Virus record (IMG/VR): IMGVR_UViG_3300038426_000008
Span: 1-30,905 of that record
Origin: a virus
Reading direction: 5' to 3' (one strand)
Length of the DNA: 30,905 nucleotides
Made by a program: the position numbers and the translations under genes. Below, in pieces: positions 3,824-30,758 of the stretch. The notes under the pieces were generated by a model. It made no database searches, was not told where the DNA came from, and saw only the letters and a program-made list of their open reading frames with translations. How positions within the stretch are numbered: position 1 is the first letter of the stretch; each line of letters opens with the position of its first letter.

Positions 3824-4678
3824 CTAAACTCCTAGATATTTGTTAACCCATCGAACGCGCAGTTCGGTGTTTGCATCGCTGTTCGTGAATATAGGCACAA
3901 TCTCATTCGGGCCGGGTACAAGTGGGAATAACTTTGAATCAGTCGTCAGGTTGCCATAGTCAACGGTCACATGGTTCCGTAATACATTATGGTTTCCAGG
4001 CCGGGTATCTAAATAAACTCGCTGTGAAGTCGGCACTGTCTCTTGCAGATCGAATAACGCTCCTGTCGTTAGATTCTGTATCTCGCACTCAGTAAATGCC
4101 CCAGTTAGACTCCACACCGGCCACGCTGGAACATCGCCTTCGTTATATAGAGTTATCTTAGAGTTTATGCTGCTCTCTCCGATTTCGCCTGCGGTTGCGT
4201 TTAACCATACTTCATTCTCAAGTGGATCATACCAATACGGATCAAATGCAGTAAACTCAGGGGAGAACATATAAAACACAGAAGGATACGCCGTATCCGA
4301 CGTTTCCTGGAACCCCATACCGTCGCTGTAATAAAGATTAATCATCCGTGTTTTACCGTCAGCAGTTACCACTTTTAGTTTCCCTGAACCGAGGTCATAA
4401 GAAAAGGCGTTGTTTAACGCACGTAAGTTCTCGCGCACGTTTTCTATGCTGGAGCCCATAACCTTTATAGGAAGATCAATAACTCGCGGAGCTGTCTGCT
4501 TTATACGAAGTACCTGTCCAGGGTAGGTGTAAACATATTCAGATGTATAATTGTAAGGTGGCATCCAGCGGCCATTAACACCCCAGAGGACATCATAATT
4601 AAGGTGATCGGTTAAGTCAATGGAACCGCCGTCGCCTCGTATGAAGTAAATTTTATCAGTTGTTGGCACTAGTACCAC
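3824..4678 (-). CDS. Distal tail protein (Dit-like, siphovirus tail component)
   Basis: This 284-residue protein begins at a GTG inside the end of the tape-measure gene (10-base overlap); a second GTG three codons on is an alternative start. An N-terminal beta domain with IKQTAPRVIDLPIKVMG followed by RENLRALNNAFS is characteristic of siphovirus Dit proteins, in which that stretch lines the hexameric ring. The FSPEFTAFDPYWYDP segment in the middle is also typical. The C-terminal half (residues about 160-284) has the galectin-like second domain, including ending motif LRVRWVNKYLGV. Dit forms the ring joining the tail tube to the hub. Location between tape measure and hub is the canonical one. 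Confidence 0.85.
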   Translation of the reverse strand: MVLVPTTDKIYFIRGDGGSIDLTDHLNYDVLWGVNGRWMPPYNYTSEYVYTYPGQVLRIKQTAPRVIDLPIKVMGSSIENVRENLRALNNAFSYDLGSGKLKVVTADGKTRMINLYYSDGMGFQETSDTAYPSVFYMFSPEFTAFDPYWYDPLENEVWLNATAGEIGESSINSKITLYNEGDVPAWPVWSLTGAFTECEIQNLTTGALFDLQETVPTSQRVYLDTRPGNHNVLRNHVTVDYGNLTTDSKLFPLVPGPNEIVPIFTNSDANTELRVRWVNKYLGV

Positions 4679-7600
4679 CCGTTCTGCATGAAGTCATTAC
4701 GCTTTATTTGTTTTACAACCTGGTCAGCCATCTTACGAACCGCTACTGCATTCTCATCGCCTGATACTTTCATGTTGATTGTGTACTGGTTGCCTAACGC
4801 ATTGGCTCCTTTCTTTAACGGAATAACCGCTTCTGGACCCCCTTCACCTAACCGTGAAACTATCGGAGCTGTAACGATGCCGCCGTGTTGCAGTCCCATG
4901 CCGCCGCCCATCATACCCATAGCTCCACTCATGACGCTTCCAAAACCACTAGCGATCTGACCTAGATCACCGAACATCGCATCCCAATCGATAGGGGCTT
5001 TTGTTGAGTGGGTGATGAAATATGAACCGCCATATCCAAACGAAGCCTCAGTAGGTTGTTTTTGCTCTTGTATCGTGTTGCCAATCCACGTAAACAAGTT
5101 AACGATCCCAGTGATAATGCCAATTATACCGCTGAATATCCCTCCTATACCTCCACCTCCACCGCCGCTACTGCTGCCTCCGAGTAACGATGCTAGGCTG
5201 GTGATAGAGTTTGATACCTTATTACCGGCATTATTCACAGTGTTTCCGAGATTTTGTGCGTTGTTATTCTGGCTCGCGAGTAGGGTGTTTGCGTTTAGAG
5301 TGGCATTAGACTGAGTTCCCGTTCCAAGAGTTAAGAGGCCAGATATTACACCCATCAGACCGCTGCCTGCTGTGGACGCAAGACTCGCAACGCCGTCGAA
5401 TATAGACTTCCCTGAGTTTATCTGCTGCTGCCCCCAGTTCTGGAGCTGCGACACTACAGAATTTGACCCTATCGGTGTGCCTTGTCCCTGTAACGCAGTG
5501 ATAATCTGAGGCGTACCGGTATCCTTTTCTATTCCTGCTTTTGCGTTTGATGGATAATAATCAAGATTGGTAAGTACTCCTCCGAATCGTACAGGGAGTT
5601 CTTTAAGGCTTTCCTGTGCGCTCATTAAACCAAAGAGAGCATCTCCAACTGAGCCTATTCCTTTGGTTACAGTATCGACAAGACTGCTGATATTAGACAT
5701 CAAGGACTTCTGAGCGTCAGCAGCACTCTGCGCCGTCTGCGCGGTATTGGCAGCGGTTTGGGCATCATACGCCGCTATCGCATTAGTCGCATCGGTTATA
5801 TCTGACGCGGACTTACCAAATTGAGGATAGAACTTATTAACTAAATCAATCTCTTGCTGCAACGTGGCAGTCGATTGTTTTGTGTTTTCCGCAAGCTCGG
5901 TCAAGTAAGCTATCTGTTCGTCGGCGGTCTGATAATACCATTTTCCGTTTTGGAGCCACGCGCCAGCGGTTGTTGGGGATGCCCCCCCTGCCTGATAGCC
6001 GCCCGGGATGGCTGGTAGTAGCTTTGCCAAGTTCTGTAGCGCAGTGTTCGCGTCTATAGTAGAGCTTGCAGCTTTTCCAAATTGAGGGTAATACGTATTA
6101 ACAAGGTTGATCTCTTCTTGCAGTTCTGCGTTCGTTTGCTTCGTCTCTTCTGCAAGTACAGTGAGTTTTAAGATCTCCTGATCGGCAGTTAGTTTGGGAT
6201 CGTAATATTGACTAGAATCAGTTGGAAGGGTCGGACTCGTTCCACCCGGCCCAACTAGATTCATAGAACCCGGAGCTGGTATTATACCGCCGCCTGCCAT
6301 TCTCGGAAGTGCATTTAATACTGCAGGATGCACTCCCCACCACATATCACTAGGTATAATCGCTTCTGATCGTCCGCCTTCTCCTACTATAACAGGAATT
6401 CCGCCGCTCCGTGAGCCGACTAAAGACCCAGCGGCGGCGCTATTACAAGGAGTGCCGTTAGAAAGACATAATCCACAGCTACAACAAGAGCGGTTATCTG
6501 GCTCAGGACAGAAGAAATAACCTGGGGGACAAGTGCAGCTACCATCCGGCCCTGTTGGTTTGGGGCCTATATCCCCCATAAGGCCGCCGCCCTGCATTCT
6601 TGGTATAGAGCCGCCTACGAGTAGTCCTCTTGCTGCTGGGAACGGGTTTTCATAAGTGCTGAAATTCCCCGAGGGCGACGGGCCTTGCATCACTGTGGCC
6701 TTCGGATACGTATCCATCAAATTTCTACAAATCTCACAATTTGTACCCGTTGGGTCGCTGAGCCAAAGCGTTTGCCCCGCTCCCTGTCCGGTCGTGTCTA
6801 CAGTCTGGCCCTTTGCGCTCTGTTGGTTCGCTGGCGGACTAGCTTTACCTAAGGACAAGATTGTAGATGCTACCTTATCAAAGAACGATTGAGCAGCATT
6901 TATCATCACTCCACCTAACCCACTGAGCGCAGTCGTCATCTTAGACATCCATGTAGAGTTAGAGATAAAGTCAGCGGCGGCAGTCCATAACCACGAAGCT
7001 AGACCAAGAAGTGCGGCGGCCATCTTGGTGGCCCATGTTGCATTCGTAACGAAATCAACCGCTGCTGTCCATAACCACGAACCCAAGCCAACTAGAGCGG
7101 CAGCTAGCTTAGAAGCCCACGTACTGTTAGTAACAAAATCAACGGCGGCAGTCCACAGCCACGAACCTAGACCTACAAGCGCCGTTGCTAGTTTGGAGGC
7201 CCATGTTGTGTTAGCCACAAAGTCTGAGGCCGCTGTCCATAACCACGAAGCAAAGCCGGTTAGTGCGGCAGCGATTTTAGTTTTCCACGTTGCATTAGAT
7301 ACGAAGTCCTCTGCTGCCTTCCATAGCCACGTGCCGAAACCTACGAGTGCAGTTGCGAATTTACCCGGTAAGCCCGTAAAGAACGGAATCGCATCTTTAA
7401 GTAACCACGAGCCGAAATCAGTGAGGGCAGATTTAATCGCCGAGCCTAACCCCCCTGCAGCCCCACTAAGAGTACTACCAGCCCCACTAAGCGCACTACC
7501 TACAGTTCCTGCTGCCCCACTAAGCGCACTACCTACGCCACTAGCAGCCCCTCCGAGCATACCGCCGACACTGCCTAATCCCCCTAAGACAGAACCCCCA

Positions 7601-10600
7601 ATCCCGCCGAGTACGTGCTTGATTGCCTCGCCAAGTGTACCAAGAGCTTGGCCCCAATCTACTTTCTGGAATCCCTGTATCAATGATTGCCCAAACGCAG
7701 GGAGTAGGACGAACATTAGCTGGAAAATCTGAAGCCAGTTAACCATTCTAAACAGCTGGAGGATCGTCTGCAAGAACGATGAGGCAGAACCGGCCAATGT
7801 TTTAAATAATCCAGCTATCGCATCACCCCAGTTTATTTTTGATACTGCACTTCCTATGCCGCCGAGCGCACCCGCGAGCGTGCTTGGTAAGTTAGTAAAA
7901 GCACCGGCAACCGCGTGCATTAACGGACCGGAAATCATCTTATTGAATACAGCACCGTAGTCAACTTTCTCAAGAGCAGCGATTAACGCGGTTCCTATTT
8001 TGTAGAATATCTCAGGAGCGATTTCTGCAAGCTTCTTAAGCACATCACCGAGTTTGCCAGCAATGTCAGGTCCTGCTTTCTGTACGCCTGACGAGAGGCT
8101 TTTGCTCATGCCGTCCGATACTTTTGCTCCGGCTGATCCTCCACCTCCGCCGCCTGTAGTCGTGCCAAACAGTGAATCAAATACACTACCTATAGCATTG
8201 ATAAGTCCGGTGACAACCGGCGTCCAGTCTGTATTCTCCAAGTTGGTGAGCCACGTCGAGATAGTATTGTCAAGGGAGTCGAGCATGTTATAGAACAGTT
8301 GACCCCAGTCAATATTGGCAAGAGCACCAAACGCACCGACTAACGCGGTTCCTATGCCGGAGAGGCCGCTGAGTATAGAAGAGCGAACAGAGATACCTAT
8401 GTTATATACACTAGCTAACCCGCTTACGATTGAATTAGCAACACCACCCCAGTCAATAGTCGTAAGGGCATTAATAATAGAAGAGCGAACAGAGGTCCCT
8501 ATATTATATATACTCCTCAACCCGCCCATAATAGCATTGCCGATCGTACCTGCTGATTCCTGGACAGACGTAACCATCTTGCCTGCCCACTCAGACCAGT
8601 TGAAATTCATTAAGGAGTTGATCGCGCCTTGGAAGCCGGTCTTGAGCAGGTCCCCAACTTTGGCGAAGTTGCCGCCTACCAACGCGCCGATGATGTCTTT
8701 AACCCATCCGAATATCTGCTTGAATGTGTCAAGGATGCCGCCGATCATGCCTCTAAACGTGCCAGATGTTGCGTATAATACTGCAAATATTCCTACAACA
8801 GCAGTCAATGGAAGTACTAGACTAGATGCTACTTCTAGAACTGCACCTAGTCCACCTTCAATACCGAGTGCTCCTGCAGCAGCTTCGCCAATCCCTCCAA
8901 CGAGTCCGGTTATGGGAGCTAAGATACCACCTAACGTGCTAGATATGCTAGTGAAAATAGTTGATAATAAACCTGCGGAACCTGCCGCCTCTTCTAGTTC
9001 TGGGGCAACTTCTCCGGCTTCTGTAGCTACACCCTCAGCACCGGCCAGCTCTTCACCTTCTGCTGCCACTCCACCTACTTTGCCGCCGCCAGGAACGCCC
9101 ATCTTCTCTTCAGCACCGACAGCAGCGGTTTTATCAAGATCACCCAGACTTTTATTTGCTTTCAGTGACGCTAAATCAACGCCTGAAATCTTTTCAATAA
9201 GTCCCCCGAACTTACTACCTAGTCCTCCAAGTTCGCCGCCTATCTTAGAGAAAACCATATTCATTGCAGCTAATCCACCAACAAGTATGGGGGCTCCTAA
9301 GGCGATAAGCTGGATCGGCGCGGGTATCGCTGCGAATACCTTAGCTAATGTACCTACAATGCCAATAAGAGGTTCAGCGGCAGTTAGTACATTTTGTAAG
9401 ACGTTTATAAGGGTTATACCAATAGGGGCGAATGCTACAGTCAGGGAGTTCTTAAGGCGATCTATCTGCTCCCCCATAGTTTCATAGCCTTCTCCGGCTT
9501 TCTCAGATGCTCCCTTGCTGTTCGTGATAGAATCAATTAATTTATCATTGTCTAACTTCCCAGCTTTGGCTAAAGAAGAGAAATTATCAACGCTTTTACC
9601 GAGCAGCTTTGTTTCATCTGCAGTGAGCGTGCCTTTCTTTGCGTCCTCCACCATATCGCCCCAGAACTTTGAGGAACTTTCATGTGCTGCAGTAGCCGCT
9701 TTGGTTATACCTTGAAGGACTGTACTGACCTGCCGCGCTGGGATACCCGCTTGACTTAGTTGCGCAATAAGGGCTATCTGTTGCGGGATCGACATACCCA
9801 TCTTTGTCATTGAAGTTGTTGCTTTGTCAAAGATAGGGGCTATTTTACCGACCGCTACGCCTGTATTTTGGAATGCAGCAGTCATCATATCGGATAGTTC
9901 TGGCATATCCATTACGGGCTTGTGCATTCCAGTTAAGCCGAGATTGGCAGCATTGAGTGCTGTCGTGAAGGTAGTTATGTTTGAGGTAGCACTTGTGCCA
10001 GTTGCTATACTATAGTCAATTACATCCGTGGCGGCGTCTTGTAGTGCTTGGCCTTGTAGCCCTAATTTTAATGTTAACGTATCGATGACACTTGTGACTG
10101 TCTCAGCACTTTCTGGCACATTCGCAAAAACGCCGCTCCAAACGCCTTCTAAGGTCTTTAATTGTTCGCCTTGCACCCCCGTCGCCTTTGCCATTGTATT
10201 GTATGCATCTTGGACGCTTTCTCCTGCCTTGACGCTGAAGGCAGTCACCGCTATGGCAGCACCACCCAAACCTGCGGCTGCTAGATTTCCTAAACCACCA
10301 AATGAACTACCTAAACCCGTGGTCTTAGAGGCTGTGCCTTCGAGGTCGCCGCCCAAGTTTTTCGCCTTGCTCGACGTACCTTCAAGGTCGCGGCCTACTC
10401 CACCTAGCGATGTGCTTAATCCAGTCGCTTTAGACGCAGCACCTTCTGCTTTGGTTCCTAAATCTTCGGTTGCAGTAGCTGCGTCCTGAGATGCGCTCTT
10501 GAAACCCCCAAGTGAGGACGTTGACGAAGTTAAAGAGGTAGTAAGACCTTCGGCTTTAGTCCCGGTCTTATCGAGAGAAGTAGTAAGGTTATCCGCTTCA

Positions 10601-10827
10601 GAAGCGGTTCCCTTAAAAGCAGTTGCGTTTGAAGCTAGGTTAGAAGATAATCCCTGGGCCTTAGTCCCAGTCTTATCAAGCTCAGTGCCGAGTTTATCAA
10701 CATCGCTAGCCGCGCCTTTAAAAGAGGTAGATAACCCACTGGCTTCGGTTTTAGCGCCAGCTATCCCGGTCTTTAACCCCTCGGTGTTGGCGGTGATTAA
10801 AACTTCTAAAGTATCCAGGAGGGTCAT
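4669..10827 (-). CDS. Tail tape measure protein, 2052 residues
   Basis: It is by far the longest gene in the window and follows the tail-assembly chaperone with an ATGA overlap. The N-terminus has repeated Thr/Ser/Gly-rich segments (LDKTGTKAQGLSS, LDKTGTKAEGLTT), then a TP901-type core with hydrophobic segments such as IQLIALGAPILVGGLAAM. Residues 1160-1330 carry a Trp-rich tandem repeat. Residues 1364-1461 hold ten cysteines, eight within 31 residues. The typical C-terminal tape-measure motif occurs twice: VGEGGRSEAIIPSD near residue 1480 and LGEGGPEAVIPLKKG near the end. Two related helical segments (QEEINLVNTYYPQFGKAAS and QQEIDLVNKFYPQFGKSAS) lie between. The protein sets tail length; at about 0.15 nm per residue the tail would be near 300 nm (inference). 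Confidence 0.93.
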   Translation of the reverse strand: MTLLDTLEVLITANTEGLKTGIAGAKTEASGLSTSFKGAASDVDKLGTELDKTGTKAQGLSSNLASNATAFKGTASEADNLTTSLDKTGTKAEGLTTSLTSSTSSLGGFKSASQDAATATEDLGTKAEGAASKATGLSTSLGGVGRDLEGTSSKAKNLGGDLEGTASKTTGLGSSFGGLGNLAAAGLGGAAIAVTAFSVKAGESVQDAYNTMAKATGVQGEQLKTLEGVWSGVFANVPESAETVTSVIDTLTLKLGLQGQALQDAATDVIDYSIATGTSATSNITTFTTALNAANLGLTGMHKPVMDMPELSDMMTAAFQNTGVAVGKIAPIFDKATTSMTKMGMSIPQQIALIAQLSQAGIPARQVSTVLQGITKAATAAHESSSKFWGDMVEDAKKGTLTADETKLLGKSVDNFSSLAKAGKLDNDKLIDSITNSKGASEKAGEGYETMGEQIDRLKNSLTVAFAPIGITLINVLQNVLTAAEPLIGIVGTLAKVFAAIPAPIQLIALGAPILVGGLAAMNMVFSKIGGELGGLGSKFGGLIEKISGVDLASLKANKSLGDLDKTAAVGAEEKMGVPGGGKVGGVAAEGEELAGAEGVATEAGEVAPELEEAAGSAGLLSTIFTSISSTLGGILAPITGLVGGIGEAAAGALGIEGGLGAVLEVASSLVLPLTAVVGIFAVLYATSGTFRGMIGGILDTFKQIFGWVKDIIGALVGGNFAKVGDLLKTGFQGAINSLMNFNWSEWAGKMVTSVQESAGTIGNAIMGGLRSIYNIGTSVRSSIINALTTIDWGGVANSIVSGLASVYNIGISVRSSILSGLSGIGTALVGAFGALANIDWGQLFYNMLDSLDNTISTWLTNLENTDWTPVVTGLINAIGSVFDSLFGTTTGGGGGGSAGAKVSDGMSKSLSSGVQKAGPDIAGKLGDVLKKLAEIAPEIFYKIGTALIAALEKVDYGAVFNKMISGPLMHAVAGAFTNLPSTLAGALGGIGSAVSKINWGDAIAGLFKTLAGSASSFLQTILQLFRMVNWLQIFQLMFVLLPAFGQSLIQGFQKVDWGQALGTLGEAIKHVLGGIGGSVLGGLGSVGGMLGGAASGVGSALSGAAGTVGSALSGAGSTLSGAAGGLGSAIKSALTDFGSWLLKDAIPFFTGLPGKFATALVGFGTWLWKAAEDFVSNATWKTKIAAALTGFASWLWTAASDFVANTTWASKLATALVGLGSWLWTAAVDFVTNSTWASKLAAALVGLGSWLWTAAVDFVTNATWATKMAAALLGLASWLWTAAADFISNSTWMSKMTTALSGLGGVMINAAQSFFDKVASTILSLGKASPPANQQSAKGQTVDTTGQGAGQTLWLSDPTGTNCEICRNLMDTYPKATVMQGPSPSGNFSTYENPFPAARGLLVGGSIPRMQGGGLMGDIGPKPTGPDGSCTCPPGYFFCPEPDNRSCCSCGLCLSNGTPCNSAAAGSLVGSRSGGIPVIVGEGGRSEAIIPSDMWWGVHPAVLNALPRMAGGGIIPAPGSMNLVGPGGTSPTLPTDSSQYYDPKLTADQEILKLTVLAEETKQTNAELQEEINLVNTYYPQFGKAASSTIDANTALQNLAKLLPAIPGGYQAGGASPTTAGAWLQNGKWYYQTADEQIAYLTELAENTKQSTATLQQEIDLVNKFYPQFGKSASDITDATNAIAAYDAQTAANTAQTAQSAADAQKSLMSNISSLVDTVTKGIGSVGDALFGLMSAQESLKELPVRFGGVLTNLDYYPSNAKAGIEKDTGTPQIITALQGQGTPIGSNSVVSQLQNWGQQQINSGKSIFDGVASLASTAGSGLMGVISGLLTLGTGTQSNATLNANTLLASQNNNAQNLGNTVNNAGNKVSNSITSLASLLGGSSSGGGGGGIGGIFSGIIGIITGIVNLFTWIGNTIQEQKQPTEASFGYGGSYFITHSTKAPIDWDAMFGDLGQIASGFGSVMSGAMGMMGGGMGLQHGGIVTAPIVSRLGEGGPEAVIPLKKGANALGNQYTINMKVSGDENAVAVRKMADQVVKQIKRNDFMQNGWY
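6445..6537 (-). other. Cysteine-rich segment inside the tape measure
   Basis: Residues 1431-1461 of the tape-measure protein contain eight cysteines in the pattern C-x-C-x6-C-x7-CC-x-C-x2-C-x6-C, including CTCPPGYFFC and CCSCGLC. A further CEIC pair lies at residues 1364-1367 (6727-6738). The rest of this very long protein is nearly free of cysteine. The segment is flanked by Gly/Pro-rich linkers and a VGEGG motif, which makes it look like an inserted module. Confidence 0.75.
6949..7332 (-). repeat. 84-bp tandem repeat coding for Trp-rich 28-residue units in the tape measure
   Basis: The TW codon pair recurs with its Trp at 6949, 7033, 7117, 7201 and 7285, and the WLW motif recurs at 6985, 7069, 7153, 7237 and 7321, so both markers keep an exact 84-base period through five copies. 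A consensus unit reads TWASKLATALVGLGSWLW followed by TAAVDFVTNS. A sixth, diverged unit with GSWLLKD follows at about 7405, six bases out of register. Copies differ at many third positions, so the repeat is old rather than freshly expanded. Confidence 0.9.
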
Positions 10828-16726: not shown

Positions 16727-17899
16727 TTACTCCCAGGTTGACGAAACACAGCCGCTTAGGAAGTAACCGAGATCCTGAGCGATTAGCTCCATGCCCATCG
16801 CCATCTCAGCTTCCATCCTCATTGCGCGTCTCCACTCCATGCGGAAGTTTCGCACTGCAAACCAGCCAGCTCCACCAGAACCCACGATGTCCTGATACGG
16901 CCCACCAGAGCTGAGGTATCCGTTCCATCCGAACGTGTATCCAGCCGAAGGTGTCAATATCGAGGGGGTTGGGTTGCTGTAGCAGAGCAATGCGTCTTTT
17001 CCATACGCAAATCCCATGCTTGGCGTGGCAGAGCCTTCCTGAGCCGAGTTCACCACACACATCGGGATGATGACCCTGTCAATAGAAAGCACCTGAGCAA
17101 GTGCCTGCTCACTGATGATTGCCGGGCTGCCTGGAGTTCCACCGTATTTGATTCTTTCTAGGATCTCAGGGTGAACGATCAGCGCTTCGTAGACTTCTGG
17201 CCCGATCACAAGAGTGTTCGGCACGTAGCCAGTAGCCATCGCCATCTCAAGCCTGTACTTCCGTATATCCTCGATAGGAGTTGAGTTCACCTGGTCGTCC
17301 CAGTACACGAAGTTCGGGGACCCACCGTATGCGCCGCCGGTCACTGTGTTGGTCCATACGTCCGTAAAGTAATTATTTACGAACTGCATCTCCCTTGCGA
17401 GTAGAAGCTTCTGCGTCAGGAACAACGAAATATCCCGCTGCATGTTCAACGGAGCATCGGCGTTAGCCGCAACCGCGTCACCGAGGTCAACATGCAATCC
17501 CCACACGTCGCACATGTAGGTATTTGTCATCTTGAGCCCGTAGCCGGTTCCGGTTGTCTCAGCACCGTCTAGCCGTACTTGAGCCTCATTCGTGAACCAG
17601 TAGTCTTTAGTGTACGAGACGTAGTAATCCGATTTCTTCATCACAGGGATGAGCGGAAATATCTCGGCTGCTCTAAAGTTGGTTTGAGACTGTATGTACG
17701 CAATAGAGAACATCGTGTTCGGGACGTTCACGTGTACATCGAAGACCGTAGGTTGAGCTTTTCTAAGAGTTACCTCATTAGGCATTGTCCATGCTTCGTA
17801 GGGGCTCTCGATAAGTCCAGCTTTGGTAAGCCTTTGGGCTGCTCCATAAACACCGAGGTTCGGAGTCGGGGTCGCAAAGTTTCTGTAATTTGTTGCCAT
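16727..17899 (-). CDS. Major capsid protein (HK97 fold)
   Basis: This 390-residue protein has AGGAGAAG upstream and follows the protease, scaffold-like and decoration genes, the canonical order. Segments typical of HK97-fold coat proteins with the Mu-like/GPE pattern include AAEIFPLIPVMKKSDYYVSY, the long helix-strand run LTQKLLLAREMQFVNNYFTD, IEDIRKYRLEMAMATGYVPN with NTLVIGPEVYEALIVHPEIL (spine helix and A-domain), and FRMEWRRAMRMEAEMAMGME near the C-terminus. There is no long N-terminal delta domain, consistent with a separate scaffold-like protein upstream. Confidence 0.9.
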   Translation of the reverse strand: MATNYRNFATPTPNLGVYGAAQRLTKAGLIESPYEAWTMPNEVTLRKAQPTVFDVHVNVPNTMFSIAYIQSQTNFRAAEIFPLIPVMKKSDYYVSYTKDYWFTNEAQVRLDGAETTGTGYGLKMTNTYMCDVWGLHVDLGDAVAANADAPLNMQRDISLFLTQKLLLAREMQFVNNYFTDVWTNTVTGGAYGGSPNFVYWDDQVNSTPIEDIRKYRLEMAMATGYVPNTLVIGPEVYEALIVHPEILERIKYGGTPGSPAIISEQALAQVLSIDRVIIPMCVVNSAQEGSATPSMGFAYGKDALLCYSNPTPSILTPSAGYTFGWNGYLSSGGPYQDIVGSGGAGWFAVRNFRMEWRRAMRMEAEMAMGMELIAQDLGYFLSGCVSSTWE

Positions 17900-20225: not shown

Positions 20226-21602
20226 TCAGTTTTTTCGGTATCTAGCTTCAAGAGCCTTTGACACCTGTAACCTCTTTCGTGCGAATTCCTCATCAGTCCT
20301 CCACGTGCCTAGTGAGTTTGGATGAGGCATCGTGAACTCAACGTCCCTTTCCAATGCTTTCTTGACTGTATGACCTAAAGCTATAATCGGGATCTTACGC
20401 TTTGACTTAGATTCTACCTTAGCTATCTCATCCCTGAACCAGGGTTGCCACGCTTCGATCTCATCAGCCATTGGTTCTCGGACTTTTCCATCATCTTCTT
20501 TGAGGAGTTGTGGCACTAGAGGTACAATAGCTATATCTTCCCTTGTCAGTCCTAAAGGAGTTAGGTACTCGTCATTAAATATCTTGCCAGTAGCTCCTAC
20601 TAACGCTGACTTTCTGATTGACTCAACTACTCCTGGCGATGCAATAACGAAGGTAAGGATAGGCCGCTTTCCGATGTGAGTTATTACATCAGTTTTTTGG
20701 AGGCTCTTCTTATTCTTCAATTTCATGCAGTTGGCTTTAACCTTTTCGCAGTCAGCATCAGCCTCTTCAGCGGTTTCCTTCTTAACGCTTTTCTCTGCTT
20801 GGTTCTTTTTATCCTCATCGGATGCTATTGCGTCAACAGTATTAAAGTGGCATTTCTCTAGGTCTTCATCGCTTGGTTTATCTGACTTCTTTGTATCATC
20901 TGACCTAGAAGCTAACTCCTGTTTTATCTTAGATTTGAACGTGTCCATGTCAGCTTGGGTAAAGCCTTTGAGTGTATTTCCCGCTCCCTGGTGCTGTGCA
21001 AGCCGCCAGTTATAGGTCGTTAAGTCTTTCGTGCTCTTTCCTTTTATTTCAGCCGCGAGCTGTGCCATTCGGCTGTCAGATACTGCTTTTTCAACTTCTT
21101 CTTTACTCATCTTCTTTTTACTCGTTACATTAGGTGTTGCATTAGGTGTTGCGTTAGATGTTTGAGCTCCACTACCCGTAGTCTGATTCTCACACGTTTC
21201 ATCCCCTGGCGCACATGCGCTTTGATTATTCTGGTTACCCTGTAGTTGCGGCGGGCTTGGTGGAGTTAAGTCATCCTGTGTAGTCATTGGTGTGGCCTGT
21301 GGTATTGGCGTGATATTGGAAGGAAGTGGTTGCTTTTCGACTCCCTGCTCTGCGTTTACGTCTGCTTGTGTAGCTTGGGCTTGACGTGCCTCTGTTGCTG
21401 CTTGCGCTGATTCGGATTGTGCTTGAGCAGCGGCAGCAGCGCGTGCCTTACCACTTGCTTTTCCACCAGCGCGAGGTAGGGCTTGCCTGTGTAGGTTGTC
21501 CATCACATGCGGGGGAACGTATTGTCTCACCGCCTCTAAAAGTTCTGAGATATACTCCTGTGAGTACTCTTTTGGTTTCGCTTCCTTTTCTATTTCTTCC
21601 AT
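20226..21602 (-). CDS. Head assembly protein with C-terminal uracil-DNA-glycosylase-like domain
   Basis: This 458-residue protein has AAAGGTAACAA upstream of its ATG. Residues 1-160 are helical then low-complexity (Ala/Gln, Thr/Pro; ATPNATPN). Residues 165-235 look like an unknown helical domain. Residues 305-456 resemble the uracil-DNA glycosylase superfamily: LTFVIASPG (motif 1 position), SALVGATGKIFND, YLTPLGLTREDIAIVPLVP, PIIALGHTVKKAL, and MPHPNSLG (HPN at 427-429, the place of the catalytic-loop H-P-S motif). Activity is not certain: the motif 1 residues differ from the usual GEAPG/GxDPY. The gene ends in CGA AAA AAC TGA, a slippery heptamer directly before the stop, leading into the protease frame. 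Its place in the head operon suggests packaging into the prohead. Confidence 0.7.
   Translation of the reverse strand: MEEIEKEAKPKEYSQEYISELLEAVRQYVPPHVMDNLHRQALPRAGGKASGKARAAAAAQAQSESAQAATEARQAQATQADVNAEQGVEKQPLPSNITPIPQATPMTTQDDLTPPSPPQLQGNQNNQSACAPGDETCENQTTGSGAQTSNATPNATPNVTSKKKMSKEEVEKAVSDSRMAQLAAEIKGKSTKDLTTYNWRLAQHQGAGNTLKGFTQADMDTFKSKIKQELASRSDDTKKSDKPSDEDLEKCHFNTVDAIASDEDKKNQAEKSVKKETAEEADADCEKVKANCMKLKNKKSLQKTDVITHIGKRPILTFVIASPGVVESIRKSALVGATGKIFNDEYLTPLGLTREDIAIVPLVPQLLKEDDGKVREPMADEIEAWQPWFRDEIAKVESKSKRKIPIIALGHTVKKALERDVEFTMPHPNSLGTWRTDEEFARKRLQVSKALEARYRKN
20229..20235 (-). other. A_AAA_AAC slippery heptamer, candidate -1 ribosomal frameshift site
   Basis: Read on the minus strand in the glycosylase-like frame the codons are CGA AAA AAC TGA; the heptamer A AAA AAC fits the X_XXY_YYZ rule exactly. 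A one-base backward slip moves reading to CTG ATA AGG CGT, which is the protease frame, open for 159 further codons. No strong hairpin or well-spaced internal SD is evident nearby, though AAAGG lies about 19 bases upstream. Confidence 0.7.
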
Positions 21603-21630: not shown

Positions 21631-23649
21631 TTAAACATAAAACGGCCTGAATGTCACCGTGAATTCTTCAACACCTTCATCATCAACTCTCATAGTGATA
21701 AAATGATAACCGGAATGATTAGGCATCCTCTTTGATCTCATCCATCTGGATTGCGTTGATAGTGCTCCACCACTTACCGCGTGAATATGACGCTCAAAGA
21801 AGTACCCTTGTTTGTGAGCATGCCCCATAAGCAACACTTGTGGTTTGTCTCCTCCAGTAAAGCTCTCTATCAACTTTTGAATCCGATAACTATTGTGCGT
21901 CCAGAGCGTTTTCCCGTTTCTTCTAACTAAAATAAGTCCGTTGGGAACTTCGCAGCAATATACGCGCCCTGTATAGTGAACAATCGATGGTGCTGTATTA
22001 ACGGTCGGTGTTGTTTGCACAGAGGTTATAGTAACCGTGTCACCCCCCCTCGTGAACGTTATCTTGTAGCCTAATTTAATCGCAATTTCTGAAAAATCCT
22101 CTAATAATCTTTTGCTTATTGATCTATAACCGTACCCATTTGGAGAGCGCCATCCATCTCCAGATATCATGGTTTCAAATACGATCTGCAAAACGGAAGT
22201 ATCACAATCCTTCAACCATTTTGGAAGATATTTATTAGCGCTTTTATGCCCACACTCTGCCTTTAAAAAGTCTGCTAGTTCTCCACTATGTATTGTTATA
22301 CCTTTCTTAGACGATCCATAGCTACAACCCAATCGGTCTGCCAAATCAATCATTGCAGAATAGTTCTCAGGGTTGACATTTTTATATTGAGATAACGAAA
22401 CGTAATATTTTCTTGCGTGACCTTCAGTTACATACCACGCTATCAGTTCTGCAATATCGTCAATCGGAACGTCGCCGAAATGATATGATTTGACTCCTGG
22501 ATTCTTAGACTCTCTTGGAATGATAGCAACGGTTTTTGGGGTTTTTCCGTCCCACCCATTTGAGACTTGTGTAAACTGCCATTTTTGTCTGCCGTATTCG
22601 TTAACGATATCGATTGCATCTTTCCTATGCCAATTGGTGTTTAATCTAATATGGGATTTTGTAGGATACTTCAATGATTCCAATCGTTTGTAAGTAGCAC
22701 ATTCAGAAGCCCTCGTCCACATACCATGACTAGGCGTTACTAAACAATCTATGGTTCTCGCCTTGAAGTGAACCATTCCTCCATCATAATACTCATCGGT
22801 GATATGTGTTGGATTCTGCCACTCAAATACGTGGTCAGACTTCCTCATCGTTGCAACGCGATCTGTCTTTTCTAAATCCTGGAACAGTTTCCAGCCGTCA
22901 CTGGTCATTATCTCCGTTTTATCATCAAAGCAGGTCGCATAGCTAGATCCGTCCTCACCATGAAAGACACGAATTATTACTCCGCCGATTTCTATATCCC
23001 CTTCATCTCTGCCTATGTATTCCATATTCGGGACAGCTTCACATACGTCTTGTACAATATTTGCACCCACTATCTCGTACCACCTGTCATGATTGCCGCT
23101 GATTAGATACGTATGAAAAGGGATTTTAGATAGTTGTGTTTCAGCATACGCTTTCTGTGCCTCGTATCCAATGTCTCTTAGTTCGTAGATCAGATTGTAC
23201 TTACGTACATCCATGCCATGAGTCAAATCTCCACCAAACACGACGAACTGAGCCTTTCGCTTTTTGCATGTGTGTATGAAATCATCTAGGAATTCCTCGT
23301 GATAGTAGATGCTTGACATATGGGAATCGGTAAAATATCCAAATCGTATTTCCTCTCCTGCATGGCTTAAGGTTACTTTAGGAGCCCCTACAGAAAACGG
23401 GTCAACGCTTTTACCTTTAGATAATGCTTTTAGCTCTTCGTGGGTGTATCGTTCTCCGATCCCTTCTAAATATCTGGCTTGGCGTTTTTCTCTTCTATCT
23501 TCTCGCTGCCATTCGGTTTTATAGTCACGTTCTCTTTCACGGTTATTTGAGTGGTACTTCTTGCCTTCTTCCCGGCAGGCATCGCAGGTTTTGTATGCTT
23601 CTGATTCGAGTGCGATTGGTTTATTACAGCGGGAGCAAAGTCTTGTCAC
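21631..23649 (-). CDS. Metallophosphoesterase interrupted by an intein
   Basis: The start is a GTG with GAGGTGAG upstream. The 672-residue precursor begins with a zinc-ribbon-like stretch (CSRC at 5-8, CDAC at 23-26). The calcineurin-like phosphoesterase motifs follow in order: FTDSH (D108, H110), GGDLTH (D141), GNHD (186-188), VFHGED (H230), and GHAH (609-612) beyond the intein. Residues 240-586 form an intein; the spliced protein would be 325 residues. All metal-binding residues are kept in the exteins. It lies between portal-associated genes and the head protease, unusual for a nuclease or phosphatase, so a DNA end-processing or assembly role is only a guess. It may be a DNase/phosphodiesterase of the phage phosphoesterase family. 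Confidence 0.88.
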   Translation of the reverse strand: MTRLCSRCNKPIALESEAYKTCDACREEGKKYHSNNRERERDYKTEWQREDRREKRQARYLEGIGERYTHEELKALSKGKSVDPFSVGAPKVTLSHAGEEIRFGYFTDSHMSSIYYHEEFLDDFIHTCKKRKAQFVVFGGDLTHGMDVRKYNLIYELRDIGYEAQKAYAETQLSKIPFHTYLISGNHDRWYEIVGANIVQDVCEAVPNMEYIGRDEGDIEIGGVIIRVFHGEDGSSYATCFDDKTEIMTSDGWKLFQDLEKTDRVATMRKSDHVFEWQNPTHITDEYYDGGMVHFKARTIDCLVTPSHGMWTRASECATYKRLESLKYPTKSHIRLNTNWHRKDAIDIVNEYGRQKWQFTQVSNGWDGKTPKTVAIIPRESKNPGVKSYHFGDVPIDDIAELIAWYVTEGHARKYYVSLSQYKNVNPENYSAMIDLADRLGCSYGSSKKGITIHSGELADFLKAECGHKSANKYLPKWLKDCDTSVLQIVFETMISGDGWRSPNGYGYRSISKRLLEDFSEIAIKLGYKITFTRGGDTVTITSVQTTPTVNTAPSIVHYTGRVYCCEVPNGLILVRRNGKTLWTHNSYRIQKLIESFTGGDKPQVLLMGHAHKQGYFFERHIHAVSGGALSTQSRWMRSKRMPNHSGYHFITMRVDDEGVEEFTVTFRPFYV
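21892..22932 (-). mobile_element. Intein with LAGLIDADG homing endonuclease (347 residues)
   Basis: Junctions are clear: extein YAT precedes Cys240 (codon 22930-22932) and the last residues are THN (586) followed by extein Ser587. Splicing blocks: A, CFDDKTEIMTSDGWKLF; B, CLVTPSHGMW with T305 and H308; F/G, RVYCCEVPNGLILV and LWTHN. Between them two dodecapeptide motifs of a DOD endonuclease are present, LIAWYVTEGH (402-411) and VFETMISGDGW (490-500), with acidic residues E409 and D498 kept. Thus both splicing and homing look intact. The insertion point is in a conserved motif just after active-site H230, as usual for inteins. Confidence 0.93.
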
Positions 23650-23663
23650 GTCTCACCTCATTT

Positions 23664-23948
23664 TCAGTCGCATGAAATCGGAGGTTCATCATAACATGCA
23701 ATTACCGGGTCCTCCGTATCTACGTCTCTAGGCCATGTTTTTGCTATATAAATCTCTTTAATGCGTTGATCGTGGTAACATTTCATCGCGTTATATGGAT
23801 GCACTAGCTCAACTGATGGCATCATTACAAGATACCCTAACCTACCGGCATAACGAACGTTTAATGTATCCCAGTCAGGCTCATTGCCTCCGTCCCATTG
23901 ATAAACCAGACGGTATAATTCGTCTGATCTAAACCTCGCTAGATTCAT
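23664..23948 (-). CDS. Unknown 94-residue protein
   Basis: The ATG at 23946-23948 lies two bases after the stop of the 56-residue gene; an in-frame TTG at 23972 would add eight residues and overlap that gene. The product begins MNLARFRSDELYRLVYQWDG and includes RYAGRLGYLVMMPSVELVHP and a Cys-containing end (ACYDEPPISCD). No family is recognised. It precedes the phosphoesterase by 14 bases in the same operon. Confidence 0.65.
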   Translation of the reverse strand: MNLARFRSDELYRLVYQWDGGNEPDWDTLNVRYAGRLGYLVMMPSVELVHPYNAMKCYHDQRIKEIYIAKTWPRDVDTEDPVIACYDEPPISCD

Positions 23949-23950
23949 TT

Positions 23951-24121
23951 TTAAAAGAAATCCTTTAGCCAATCGTTCAGGCTTTCACGTCCTTCAAGCT
24001 GTAGCCAGTCTAATGTTATTTGGAAGATAAGATCCTCGTAATCCTTTTCTTCCAGCCAAGGGTGTCTTTTTCGTGCGGCGTCTAAGGCTTGGATTGTTTC
24101 TTTTTTTAAGTTGATGTTCAT
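23951..24121 (-). CDS. Small helical protein, 56 residues
   Basis: An ATG preceded by AGGT opens a 56-codon frame ending TAA, two bases before the next gene. The product starts MNINLKKETIQALDAARKRH and ends LNDWLKDFF; it is charged and mostly helical (LEEKDYEDLIFQITLDWLQL). The pattern resembles short ribbon-helix-helix-like or adaptor proteins, but no family is claimed. Dense packing with neighbours supports it being coding. Confidence 0.6.
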   Translation of the reverse strand: MNINLKKETIQALDAARKRHPWLEEKDYEDLIFQITLDWLQLEGRESLNDWLKDFF

Positions 24122-25118: not shown

Positions 25119-25255
25119 TTCAACTCCCTAAACGGACAGTTATCGATATGGTGTTTTATTTCCCGTCTCAGTTCTTTTATTTCATCCTTAAGCTTCCTGA
25201 TCTCCTGCTCAATTTCAGGTTCGGTCAGGAATTTAACATGAAGATTAGCTGGCAT
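25112..25255 (-). CDS. Small coiled-coil protein, 47 residues
   Basis: The ATG at 25253-25255 lies inside the end of the portal gene (11-base overlap). The product begins MPANLHVKFL and has a heptad-like charged helix (EIEQEIRKLKDEIKELRREI) before HHIDNCPFRELKC, with two cysteines near the end. It resembles short coiled-coil accessory proteins; no family is recognised. The overlap with both neighbours suggests translational coupling. Confidence 0.6.
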   Translation of the reverse strand: MPANLHVKFLTEPEIEQEIRKLKDEIKELRREIKHHIDNCPFRELKC

Positions 25256-27059
25256 TTGATCGCTTCTTTTTCTTCTTTTTAGGTTGCGTCCCTTGGACGT
25301 ATGCGACTGAGAACTCTTCGCTCGGCTTATTCACGTGTACATCGCCTACTGAAGGTTGGCTCTTTTGTGTTTTCTTAGCGGCCACATCAGCACCTAACTG
25401 GCTATATGTACTCGGGAACCCGCGAGGAGGCGTGCCACGGTAAGGTGTCTCTTCGTTAATAGGTTGACTACGTTCTCTAGCTCGAGCTGCGGTCTGTCCA
25501 GGCAGTAGTGAATCAACCGGCGTTGCAGTCTCGCCCTCGGGTTCAGGTTCCTTCGGCAGGTGTACCAGATCCCATAGGGCGTTTCTAAAGGTTACATCGT
25601 CCGGTATTGGAACACCGCCTCTAGCTACGTTATTCAGGAATGTACCTACATCGTTAATCTCAGCAGATGCTACATCGCCGTGTACTAGTTTAGGTAAAGA
25701 CTCCGGGTTTATATCAGGATTTAATTGAGCTAATCTAGGAACTGCATAACTGTTGAATACCTGGCAAATTGAATCGAGTATAGCAGATATTGAAATCGAA
25801 AATAGATTATTCCTAGTTTCAGCAAGTGCATATGATCCTGTAGTGTCCTGGCCGAGCATAAGAAAATCAGCGAGTACTGTCATAGCTATCCATTTCGAGA
25901 ACATCTGGATAATGCTGACAATATCAAATTGTCTCTGTGATTGTGGGCCTGCTAGCTCTAGGCTATACATTGGACCGCCACCCATGTCTGCTGGATAGTT
26001 GTTTGATGGCAAGAGTATGCCCTCATCCTGGTTACGCTTTAGGTTGCGAACAACGCGCTTTAGCATGTTATTCATTGCTACAGATCGGGCATCGATTCCA
26101 GTTAATACCTCACCAGGAGCACGTAGGATCGGGACGCCAGCCAGGTCGCGTTCGAGCCCAGTCATCATAATCTCTTCCGCTAATTTTTTGAACATATACG
26201 TCCGGTATGCTCCACGTAATAGAGAGACACCTTCTGGGTTGCCTTTGCGTGGCTTGACTCTAAACAACAACAGCTTTTCTATCGGTATTTCGGTGATCCT
26301 AAAGTGAGGCGGTGCGAGCTGTCTAAATCCTCTTATTCCGCCGTTAACGTCAAAGTCCCAATTCAATAATGTTTCCTGTGCTCTGGTAGCGAACTTCCTC
26401 CATCCGATTCTACCATCGTCATAGTTACTATCAAGCGTTGCGTCTTCTGGATGTGGGCCTTCTCGTTTCTTATACACGATTTCAGCGAGATGATACCCGA
26501 ATATGAACATGCTCAGTATCTCAGAGAGCAGATCATTTGGATTGACGCTCATATCTTCCCAGCATTGCTCGTAAAACGTCAGTGCTTTTAGATCCTCTGG
26601 AGTCTCGCCGTCGGTTTCCCACCAAAGGTTTACCGATCTACATGACATTTCAACCGCGTAAAAGATACTTGATATGACGGCATCCATCATGTACATTTCT
26701 TTGTACATACGAACGCCGCGAGTGTATTGGAGTTCAGTCAGCCATTCCTCATACACGTAGGGAGGAATGTACATTAAGCCGGTAGTGCCGTACTCTGCGA
26801 AGTAGTTTAGATTAGCTGGTGCAGCGGGTGATGAGGGGCCTATTCCCATAAGATCGCCTGAGCCTAATGTGGGTAAACCCTGGGTAGTGAACGGCATCTC
26901 TTGAAGATCGATAAGTTTCTTTATTGTCTGTTGCTCAGACTTGGAGAGCTTTGAAAATGCGTTTTGCTCTGCTTCACTAAAGGATGTGATCCCGTTAGGA
27001 GGACTTTCGGGGAATGATGTTATCCCATTAGGTTCAGTATTATTCTTTTTTCGAGCCAT
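25245..27059 (-). CDS. Portal protein (DUF935 / Mu gp29-like)
   Basis: This 604-residue protein starts at an ATG preceded by AAGGTAACAATGCTATA. Portal features are: KEMYMMDAVISSIFYAVEMS near residue 120, ILSMFIFGYHLAEIVYKKRE (wing/stem start), WDFDVNGGIRGFRQLAPP, LLLFRVKPRKGNPEGVSLLR with the adjoining GAYRTYMFKKLAEEIMMTG helix, and WIAMTVLADFLMLGQDTTGS with YALAETRNN, the hallmark of the DUF935-like portals. The C-terminal 100 residues are low-complexity and end in a Lys-rich tail (KKKKKKRSNAS). It would form the dodecameric vertex for DNA passage; the terminase is outside the window. Confidence 0.9.
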   Translation of the reverse strand: MARKKNNTEPNGITSFPESPPNGITSFSEAEQNAFSKLSKSEQQTIKKLIDLQEMPFTTQGLPTLGSGDLMGIGPSSPAAPANLNYFAEYGTTGLMYIPPYVYEEWLTELQYTRGVRMYKEMYMMDAVISSIFYAVEMSCRSVNLWWETDGETPEDLKALTFYEQCWEDMSVNPNDLLSEILSMFIFGYHLAEIVYKKREGPHPEDATLDSNYDDGRIGWRKFATRAQETLLNWDFDVNGGIRGFRQLAPPHFRITEIPIEKLLLFRVKPRKGNPEGVSLLRGAYRTYMFKKLAEEIMMTGLERDLAGVPILRAPGEVLTGIDARSVAMNNMLKRVVRNLKRNQDEGILLPSNNYPADMGGGPMYSLELAGPQSQRQFDIVSIIQMFSKWIAMTVLADFLMLGQDTTGSYALAETRNNLFSISISAILDSICQVFNSYAVPRLAQLNPDINPESLPKLVHGDVASAEINDVGTFLNNVARGGVPIPDDVTFRNALWDLVHLPKEPEPEGETATPVDSLLPGQTAARARERSQPINEETPYRGTPPRGFPSTYSQLGADVAAKKTQKSQPSVGDVHVNKPSEEFSVAYVQGTQPKKKKKKRSNAS

Positions 27060-28850: not shown

Positions 28851-30758
28851 TTAGTATTGTTCTCTAATTGCAGTGAGCATGCCATTATTCCTCGATACCG
28901 CCGTCAATGGTATAGACTCAGGCAATGTGGCGCTGAGTAACTCGATTTTCTTGCGATGTGGTATATTTATCGTACCTGTAGCTGTCGTGGCGGTTGGGGT
29001 CTTTAATGTAGTCGCAACCGTCGTTTGAGCCATTGCAGTTATTTCAGTCGTTCCACCCGGCGCGGTAAGCACCATAGCTACGTTCTGTGACGGGGCATGT
29101 GTGGCCGTTGTGGCAGTAGGCGCGGTAAGCAGTACATTTGAGACTCCAGAAACAACGGGAGCGTTTGTCGCTGTCGTAGCTGTCGGTGCTGCGAGCGCGA
29201 CTTTACGGCCCCCGGGTACAATAAGCGACGGCGCGTTTGTTTTCGTACTTGCTGTAGGAGCTTTGAGTGTGGTAGCCTGAGCAAAGGTCGGCTCGTATGT
29301 TGCAGTCGTTCCACCCGGCGTAGTGAGTACCATAGCTACATCTTTTGTGGGTGCGTTTGTTGTAGTACTTGCCGTTGGTGCTGTGGTGAGGGCGGTAGTC
29401 AGTTGGAACGTCGGAACGTTTGTAGTAGTTGTAGCACCGGGCGCGGTAAGCGTAGGTGCTATACCCACCGTTGGGGCATTGGTTGTAGTACTTGCCGTTG
29501 GCGTGGTTAGTGAGACAGGTATATTAGTCGGGATGCCCAGAGCAATATAACAAACCTGCGTGGCGTCGGTTGTGGTATCTGCGCTCCATACTGTATTAAA
29601 TTGACCAAATGAGAATCCGTTTATTGGCGCAGCGACATCTGTTGTTCCTGCGCTGGCGTTGTCTACTATAATAGCATTCGTAGCATCGTTGTAATTGTAA
29701 CCTTCCCCCTGCCCTTGGTCTCTCGCATAGACTGTAACCCCATTATTGGTTCCATCACTTCCACCAAATGTAAATCTAATGCCGGTTTGCTCTGATGCGT
29801 TTGCAGGATAGCTATCAGTCGTGGCAAGTACTGCCATCGGTGTGGTTGTCGGCGTAGCTATTGTGTCCGTAACTGCGGCTGTTTGCGCGGTTTTTGCGTG
29901 GTTTCCAACGAGAGAACTGAAACCTGTAGTTCCTGCTATTGCGAGGGAATAATAATAATGAGACGTGCCGCCGTTCACAGTCCAATCGACCGTGAAACCG
30001 TTTGAGTTTATACTAACAAACGATGCTTCATCGACGATACTTGTCCCAGTACCTGAGTCTGTGATACAAGCACTGGTAGTCTGAATCCTGCCGACGGAAT
30101 TGTACCTTGAGTCGCCCCCGGACTCATAAGTATAGTTGCACCACTGGTTACCGTTAATATCCATAGCGCCGAACATAAGTTGAACGTTAGACTCACTTAC
30201 AGGGGGGGCATTACTACTTATATCAGCGATATGGAGAACGCAGTTCGGTTTAAACGACGTGCCGTTTAATATTACAGACTGGTTTCCTGTTGCCGTATTT
30301 GATTGCCACTGCGTTACGCTGGCCCCGGTTATGTCAGAGCCGCCGAGAGCGAGGTAGTAGATTGTACACGAGTTTGTTGGTGTGGAGCTATACGTTATTG
30401 TAAATCCGTTTGAGGTAAAAGATACGGATGCAGCTTCTAACACTATACCCACATAATTGAAGCTGTTGTAGAGCACCAACGGAAGCGCAGCGTGGTAGCG
30501 GGATGCGTACTCCCCGAAACTATTAATATGTGATGACCCACAAACGGTTCCATATTGCATACCGCTTGCGTTGTTCGCCGCAAATCCGATAGCGGTTCCA
30601 ATATAATTACCACTACCCAACCCCCCACTCCATTCTGATGAGCCTTGGAATGTAGCCCACAGTATCAAGGCTTTAGGAGTAAAACTAAGGCTGGATATAG
30701 TGTCAGTTGTTCCTGACGTTGTATTGTTGAAGTTACCTACATGCGAAAGAACCGTCAC
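28851..30758 (-). CDS. Putative fibre-like protein with Thr/Ala/Pro repeat region, 635 residues
   Basis: It starts at a GTG overlapping the previous stop (GTGA). Residues about 1-270 and 280-410 are two related beta domains (SFTPKALILWATFQGSSEWS and FKPNCVLHIADISSNAPPVS; FTFGGSDGTNNGVTVYARDQ), of a type seen in phage fibre or neck proteins. Residues about 415-600 carry a repeated TAPTASTTTNAPT motif. The last 20 residues, IPLTAVSRNNGMLTAIREQY, match the end of the gene upstream. The long repeat region looks like a shaft or mucin-like linker. Function in adhesion is inferred. Confidence 0.6.
   Translation of the reverse strand: MTVLSHVGNFNNTTSGTTDTISSLSFTPKALILWATFQGSSEWSGGLGSGNYIGTAIGFAANNASGMQYGTVCGSSHINSFGEYASRYHAALPLVLYNSFNYVGIVLEAASVSFTSNGFTITYSSTPTNSCTIYYLALGGSDITGASVTQWQSNTATGNQSVILNGTSFKPNCVLHIADISSNAPPVSESNVQLMFGAMDINGNQWCNYTYESGGDSRYNSVGRIQTTSACITDSGTGTSIVDEASFVSINSNGFTVDWTVNGGTSHYYYSLAIAGTTGFSSLVGNHAKTAQTAAVTDTIATPTTTPMAVLATTDSYPANASEQTGIRFTFGGSDGTNNGVTVYARDQGQGEGYNYNDATNAIIVDNASAGTTDVAAPINGFSFGQFNTVWSADTTTDATQVCYIALGIPTNIPVSLTTPTASTTTNAPTVGIAPTLTAPGATTTTNVPTFQLTTALTTAPTASTTTNAPTKDVAMVLTTPGGTTATYEPTFAQATTLKAPTASTKTNAPSLIVPGGRKVALAAPTATTATNAPVVSGVSNVLLTAPTATTATHAPSQNVAMVLTAPGGTTEITAMAQTTVATTLKTPTATTATGTINIPHRKKIELLSATLPESIPLTAVSRNNGMLTAIREQY
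28975..29515 (-). repeat. Thr/Ala/Pro repeat region in the fibre-like protein
   Basis: About eight degenerate copies of a unit such as LTAPTATTATNAPT occur, some separated by VAMVLTAPGG. On the plus strand this shows as recurrent GTTGTAGTACTTGCCGTTGG-like runs. Variable copies suggest recombination-driven length change. Confidence 0.85.

Follow-up and report, generated by a model that had tools for sequence, protein, structure and literature searches.

A LAGLIDADG intein in a phage metallophosphoesterase gene, with close relatives at two registers 12 nt apart

Gene cluster and host phosphoesterase

The window, meaning the whole stretch of DNA analysed, is 30,905 bases long and comes from a virus record. 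Tail proteins are encoded at its left end and the tape measure protein at 4669-10827. The metallophosphoesterase (MPE) gene lies in a structural-gene cluster, between the genes of the portal (25245-27059) and the major capsid protein (16727-17899) as recognised with Pfam and PHROGs, which agrees with the head-operon setting of the original prediction. No tRNA was found in a tRNA search of the window. The ORF after the MPE gene (20226-21602, minus strand) has a long low-complexity N-terminal part and a C-terminal match to the uracil-DNA glycosylase superfamily, marginal in score (24.7 against a Pfam cutoff of 24.3 bits) and unusual within a head-gene cluster. The ORF upstream of the portal gene, at the expected place of the large terminase (28851-30758, minus strand, 635 aa), has no match in Pfam or PHROGs at E 0.01.

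The precursor ORF (21631-23649) starts with GTG and consists of 672 codons and a stop; it and all its parts described below are on the minus strand. PF00149 (Metallophos, calcineurin-like MPE) matches the precursor flanks with 32.5 bits, above the Pfam cutoff. The N-extein (239 aa, 22933-23649) contains an N-terminal CxxC..CxxC segment followed by MPE motifs I-IV, and the C-extein (86 aa, 21634-21891) holds motif V. All motifs of a calcineurin-like MPE are present: FTDSHM, GGDLTHG, SGNHDRW, FHGEDG and GHAH. The motif IV histidine, H230 (22960-22962), is equivalent to H228 of the intein-free relative L018, which is invariant in 30 of 30 proteins in a structure alignment of hand-picked MPEs; GHAH (21814-21825) is placed as motif V by sequence and by the same alignment. 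The insertion lies, as had been proposed, just past H230, between motifs IV (FHGEDG) and V (GHAH), and the precursor so interrupted is probably inactive before splicing.

The spliced enzyme was modelled on L018 (pLDDT 81.5). The model is alike in fold and motifs to Mre11/SbcD and to the exonuclease subunit DP1 of PolD (PDB 4hd0, 6knb, 5ihe), at an identity of only 10-17% and a TM-score to the query of at most 0.55 among the matches listed. With the intein removed, the product should be a metallophosphoesterase of 325 residues that belongs to the Mre11 / PolD-DP1 type. Given the resemblance to the PolD subunit and Mre11, a role at DNA ends or in DNA repair is a fair guess. The loop holding the intein sites (residues 231-240) has a low mean confidence of about 59 in the L018 model; its geometry is therefore left out of all claims.

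The small gene directly upstream of the MPE gene (23664-23972, minus strand) is 89% identical in amino acids to the gene preceding the MPE gene in the phage of contig L005 (L005 3975-4262), the same phage as L004. A search of the close relative L019 gave no match to this gene. Outside the MPE gene and this small gene, the L005 phage has nearly no DNA similarity to the window; the sole further similarity in the stretch compared is one 69-nt piece. The small gene and the intein-bearing MPE gene, about 2.3 kb in all, have the look of a module that was exchanged. The neighbourhood searches covered 37 loci in one case and 8 loci in another. A scan of genome contigs with six MPE inteins gave 17 pattern matches, none confirmed, and hence no relative; the scan thus pointed to no cultured bacterial host or prophage.

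Structure and class of the intein

The insert is, with near certainty, a full-length intein. It comprises 347 aa (21892-22932, register b) with a HINT domain and a LAGLIDADG endonuclease, and is in frame, stop-free and missing from homologues in which the flanking residues are kept. Cys240 starts at 22932, Asn586 ends at 21892 and Ser587 follows, exactly as predicted; removal of 347 from 672 residues leaves 325. Block A (22891-22932) comprises Cys1 and CFDDKTEIMTSDGW and reads CFDDKTEIMTSDGWK. Block B, VTPSHGMW (22708-22749), contains T66 and H69, the latter invariant in 40 of 40 inteins aligned. DOD motif 1, ELIAWYVTEG (22420-22452; also given as ELIAWYVTEGHA), and DOD motif 2, LQIVFETMISGDG (22153-22191; also given as VFETMISGDGW), have one acidic residue each, E170 and D259, as in LAGLIDADG endonucleases; D259 is invariant in the same 40 inteins. 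Blocks F and G, RVYCCEVPNGLILVRRNGKTLWTHN, occupy 21892-21966 and are followed by Ser+1; up to the splice junction, the segment preceding this S reads VYCCEVPNGLILVRRNGKTLWTHN.

Class 3 inteins carry a WCT triplet at B12, F4 and G5, according to a passage in PMC5050341. The splicing residues of the window intein are complete for class 1: C1, T66-x-x-H69, N347 and S+1. Counted by the intein block numbering, F4 is Cys, G5 is Thr and B12 is Met71, with Trp one residue further. Class 3 is ruled out, B12 being Met71 rather than Trp, and class 1 therefore fits better.

The splicing half of the insert matches PHROG families with inteins (E 2.6e-11). The families over the insert are thymidylate synthase, ribonucleotide reductase and PhoH, and the location of the matches suggests that these models contain inteins. 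A profile of 40 hand-picked relatives matches the inteins PI-PkoII, TliVMA and AceL NrdHF in the PDB (best E 5.8e-15). The single window protein has no match among PDB sequences, and the window intein alone has none in Pfam at 0.01; among the members of the 40-intein alignment, LAGLIDADG_3 is found in 32 and Intein_splicing in 15. In the predicted fold (pLDDT 92.4), a HINT domain with a LAGLIDADG insertion, the top structural matches are TliVMA and PI-SceI (best E 1.8e-16). TliVMA, PhoVMA, PI-SceI and PI-PkoII (PDB 7qss, 7qsu, 7qst, 1vde, 2cw7) have the same architecture but reside in other host proteins and are 10-14% identical to the window intein in structural alignments. The intein matches are far beyond chance. 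On the splicing blocks, the two DOD motifs, the HINT fold and the PDB and PHROG matches, the complete intein with LAGLIDADG endonuclease described in the original prediction is confirmed. The endonuclease region is under purifying selection (dN/dS 0.09-0.12 in six of six pairs).

Judged from its sequence, the intein is predicted to splice, cleave DNA and home. For cleavage and homing the signs are indirect: sister alleles with and without the intein, the purifying selection and a 3' tract common to two of the inteins. Self-excision would be post-translational and would proceed by attack of Cys1, a branched intermediate on Ser+1 and cyclisation of Asn347; the LAGLIDADG domain would cleave copies of this gene that have no intein, and the intein would then be copied into them. 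In itself the window intein is of an ordinary kind; the overlapping registers described below are the actual finding.

The wider intein superfamily is present in many phage genes, and the junctions often end in WSGN or WCGN. The five inteins found in phosphoesterases of the HGEDG type have THN at their end, with His in the penultimate position.

Registers, empty alleles and phylogeny

Among the loci compared, the a/b/c region is read through without an insert in 77 of 93 distinct MPE-like ORFs; two of the 77 (L220 and L224) bear an intein elsewhere; the insert is thus not a conserved normal domain. The remaining ORFs are occupied at register a (3), register b (6, from 4 distinct phages) or register c (1), or do not match the pattern (6). 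Intein-free L018, L019 and L020 read HGEDGSSYATSYRVQKLIESFTGG without interruption, with the junction HGEDGSSYAT-SYRVQK; the uninterrupted YATSYR junction anticipated for such homologues is thereby found. The L019 phage has no intein, and at the nucleotide level its genes for capsid and portal and those downstream share 79-82% identity with the window. The window and the L019 phage are a near-matched occupied/empty pair. L360 and L361 are intein-free relatives, 62% identical to the L215 phosphoesterase; L360 reads HPGGGTAYALSYKMQK uninterrupted, and L215 and L360 are a further occupied/empty pair.

The flanks in register b are HGEDGSSYAT before the intein and SYR after it (window, L004-L006); in register a they are HGEDGS or HGEDGN before it and SYAxSYR after it (L007, L008-L012, L013). 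The more distant phosphoesterases L148 and L215 are occupied in register b, with the intein between HPGGGxAYAL and SY. Register b is represented by the window and three other phages, register a by three phages. Register a (22944/22945) and register b (22932/22933) are separated by the four codons S-Y-A-T (22933-22944, 12 nt), as read from the junction codons, and the spliced protein is of equal length from either register. Since Cys1 and Asn-Ser are present, junctions are placed without choice, and registers were assigned from the junctions prior to tree building. Inteins of 77-83% amino-acid identity occur across both registers. It can be held with high confidence that close intein relatives are displaced by exactly 12 nt, or four codons, in one gene.

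The target HGEDGS-SYAx-SYR contains an SYxxSY pseudo-repeat. Of 66 empty HG-type proteins, 62 have Ser at the +1 position of register a and all 66 have it at that of register b; both registers offer Tyr at +2. The supposition that HPGGG-type phosphoesterases never have Ser at +1 of register a was wrong, since 9 of 11 have it; both occupied proteins of this type, L148 (SAYAL) and L215 (TAYAL), are without it. In the close clade, b inteins are found in SYAT alleles and a inteins in SYAV or SYAI alleles (2 vs 2). The empty sisters of both close-clade b inteins read SYAT, and that of the register a intein L028 reads SYAV. That register choice follows the allele type, SYAT or SYAV, is only suggestive with so few cases. 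Hybrid junctions, which would make the spliced protein four codons longer or shorter, are absent from the occupied loci compared.

A third site, register c, which corresponds to 21864/21865 of the window, is 27 nt downstream of b. It is occupied in L026 by a different intein of 267 aa, in the context SYRIQKLIE-intein-SITGG, the intein running from C to N; it matches the window intein family weakly, chiefly over the first 70 residues. The L026 intein lies at 5739-6539 of its contig and is without a clear Pfam endonuclease match; a fragment of it is also found in L104.

The extein tree comprises 71 ORFs in 61 distinct rows. Repeats and partial copies (L002, L010, L021, L022, L023, L027, L035, L088) were excluded, as were L089 (<250 aa) and L215 (found later). 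Occupied/empty sister pairs are the window with L018 (100/96), L004 with L036 (100/99) and L028, the same contig as L007, with L030 (100/96). Of the four a/b rows in the close clade that are occupied, three thus have a supported empty sister; L008 and L026 have no firm placement. The supported sisters indicate frequent gain or loss of the intein, as expected of a homing element.

Intein trees were built with 12 and with 13 hand-picked outgroup inteins, and the register argument is based on seven distinct MPE inteins. All seven a/b inteins group in a single clade (100/99), which excludes the 13 relatives hosted by other proteins. Monophyly of all b inteins is rejected (75 log units worse, p-AU 1.4e-6), as is monophyly of all a inteins (28 log units worse, p-AU 0.007). 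A clade of the window and L004 is compatible with the data (p 0.226), and the order of the window, L004 and L028 is not settled. Neither register is a clade, and the starred branches require at least two register changes. One site does not correspond to one clade, as it would in an allelic set, and registers a and b interleave.

The 3' tract of the intein (21892-22059) is one that the window and the L004 phage, both register b, have come to share recently. It differs at 7 of 168 nt, against 181 of 873 nt before it, i.e. 4% against 21% (Fisher p 1.2e-8, an optimistic value, given that scanning was used to select where the tract starts). The breakpoint is near nt 890-899, with a permutation p of 2e-4, which is unaffected by the scanning and is the lowest possible with 5000 permutations. 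A similar 3' drop is seen in none of the other five pairs among the four close inteins. Informative two-against-two sites among these four number 30, 28 and 29 in total and are uneven along the length. In the C-terminal splicing part, dS is 0.19 for the window and L004 and 0.95-1.52 for other pairs. The shared tract is a recent exchange, not a product of protein constraint.

Origin of the two registers and comparison with known inteins

The best explanation overall is probably that of a homing intein whose family has been displaced in frame along the SYxxSY pseudo-repeat. The family would change register when the repair that accompanies homing stays in frame but goes out of register. Since both registers have Ser+1 and Tyr+2, the spliced protein would be identical either way and neither insertion would be selected out. 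Flanking homology for repair would be retained, unlike in ordinary ectopic moves. An a-type donor has no S-Y-A-T to the left of the intein, and therefore those codons would most likely have been supplied by the empty recipient allele. Off-register homing is the preferred cause of the displacement, though put at somewhat short of an even chance. Against it, hybrid junctions, which sloppy recombination is at times expected to leave, are absent from the occupied loci compared, and independent entries by related inteins would yield the same register table. Such entries are the main rival, doubtful but a serious contender: the gene would have been invaded several times by inteins whose endonuclease targets lie 12 nt apart, without any move in place. 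Empty sisters of three of the four occupied close-clade a/b rows show that entries or losses are frequent, as this rival expects, and the distribution of b in SYAT and a in SYAV/SYAI alleles looks as if targets differ, at 2 vs 2 only. It is opposed by the union of the seven MPE inteins in a single clade, outside which 13 relatives in other genes fall, and by the 77-83% identity of enzymes across registers, each of which would need to evolve a target shifted by 12 nt.

Less is to be said for the other readings. An intein serving as a regulatory switch, with the MPE silent until an infection condition permits splicing, is improbable; the site between motifs IV and V and the probably inactive precursor would suit it, but most homologues, including the closest relative, are without the intein, and it occurs sporadically, like a selfish element. 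Every relative is from metagenome contigs, and the two registers of an ordinary allelic intein might in principle be an artefact of assembly or junction assignment. This is highly improbable, as junctions are fixed by Cys1 and Asn-Ser, register a recurs in five contigs of one phage, L007 and L013, and register b recurs in the window, two near copies, three L004-type contigs, L148 and L215; recurrence of both registers in separate contigs rules out an assembly artefact. The chance that the insert is a normal phosphoesterase domain retained in the protein is practically negligible: its splicing and endonuclease regions are both conserved, as a retained domain would be, but 77 of the 93 ORFs are without it, their flanks still in register, and related inserts are present in other proteins with unrelated flanks.

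According to the relevant passages of PMC1635734, it is very difficult for inteins to move to new sites and such moves are likely very rare, with ectopic cases allowed; homing requires flanking homology, so that allelic inteins are expected to form groups of their own. The overlapping, interleaved registers, together with the empty alleles, make the way in which inteins arrive at new sites directly testable. If true, off-register homing would be a stepwise route for inteins to colonise new sites. It is tentatively suggested that inteins can change site by in-frame off-register homing, with an empty allele supplying the codons moved across.

Related arrangements have been described. TerL1-a and TerL1-b (PMC5050341) are likewise nearly superimposed, at sites one residue apart in one phage gene; their host is the P-loop of the terminase, and the passage concerned states neither close kinship nor interleaving of the two groups in a tree. 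MCM-a to MCM-d of Haloarchaea, in the part of PMC10643990 that treats them, are likewise four close sites with LAGLIDADG endonucleases and sporadic gain and loss, but are treated there as separate, co-occurring inteins, with no in-frame 12-nt register change described. No report of one intein family interleaved between two close registers was found in the open-access PMC literature, which is a weak absence.

The rarity of a phosphoesterase as intein host, part of the original prediction, is weakened by a passage of PMC5050341 that lists 37 inteins in RDF proteins of mycobacteriophages, which are putative calcineurin-like MPEs; those inteins lie at another motif. Intein, endonuclease and location thus hold as predicted, host rarity is weakened, and the two registers and the third nearby site had been missed. 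The same passage reports splicing for the RDF intein of Bethlehem gp51, and the RDF inteins of cluster A1 mycobacteriophages described there likewise have a phage calcineurin-like MPE as host and an insertion beside a conserved MPE motif. Their site, placed from the match breaks to Bxb1 gp47 in two-piece records, is at about residue 96, by GNHD (91-94); the window site is after motif IV and so is a different allele. No MPE inteins other than those of mycobacteriophage RDF proteins were found in print in the open-access PMC literature, and the a/b insertion points seem new for MPE inteins. A fourth site, d, at MPE motif III, is occupied by inteins of the same superfamily in L220 (5001-6014) and L224 (5001-6023). 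Its context is ITGD or LTGE, then CHEGW, and it lies near the match breaks in the mycobacteriophage RDF genes.
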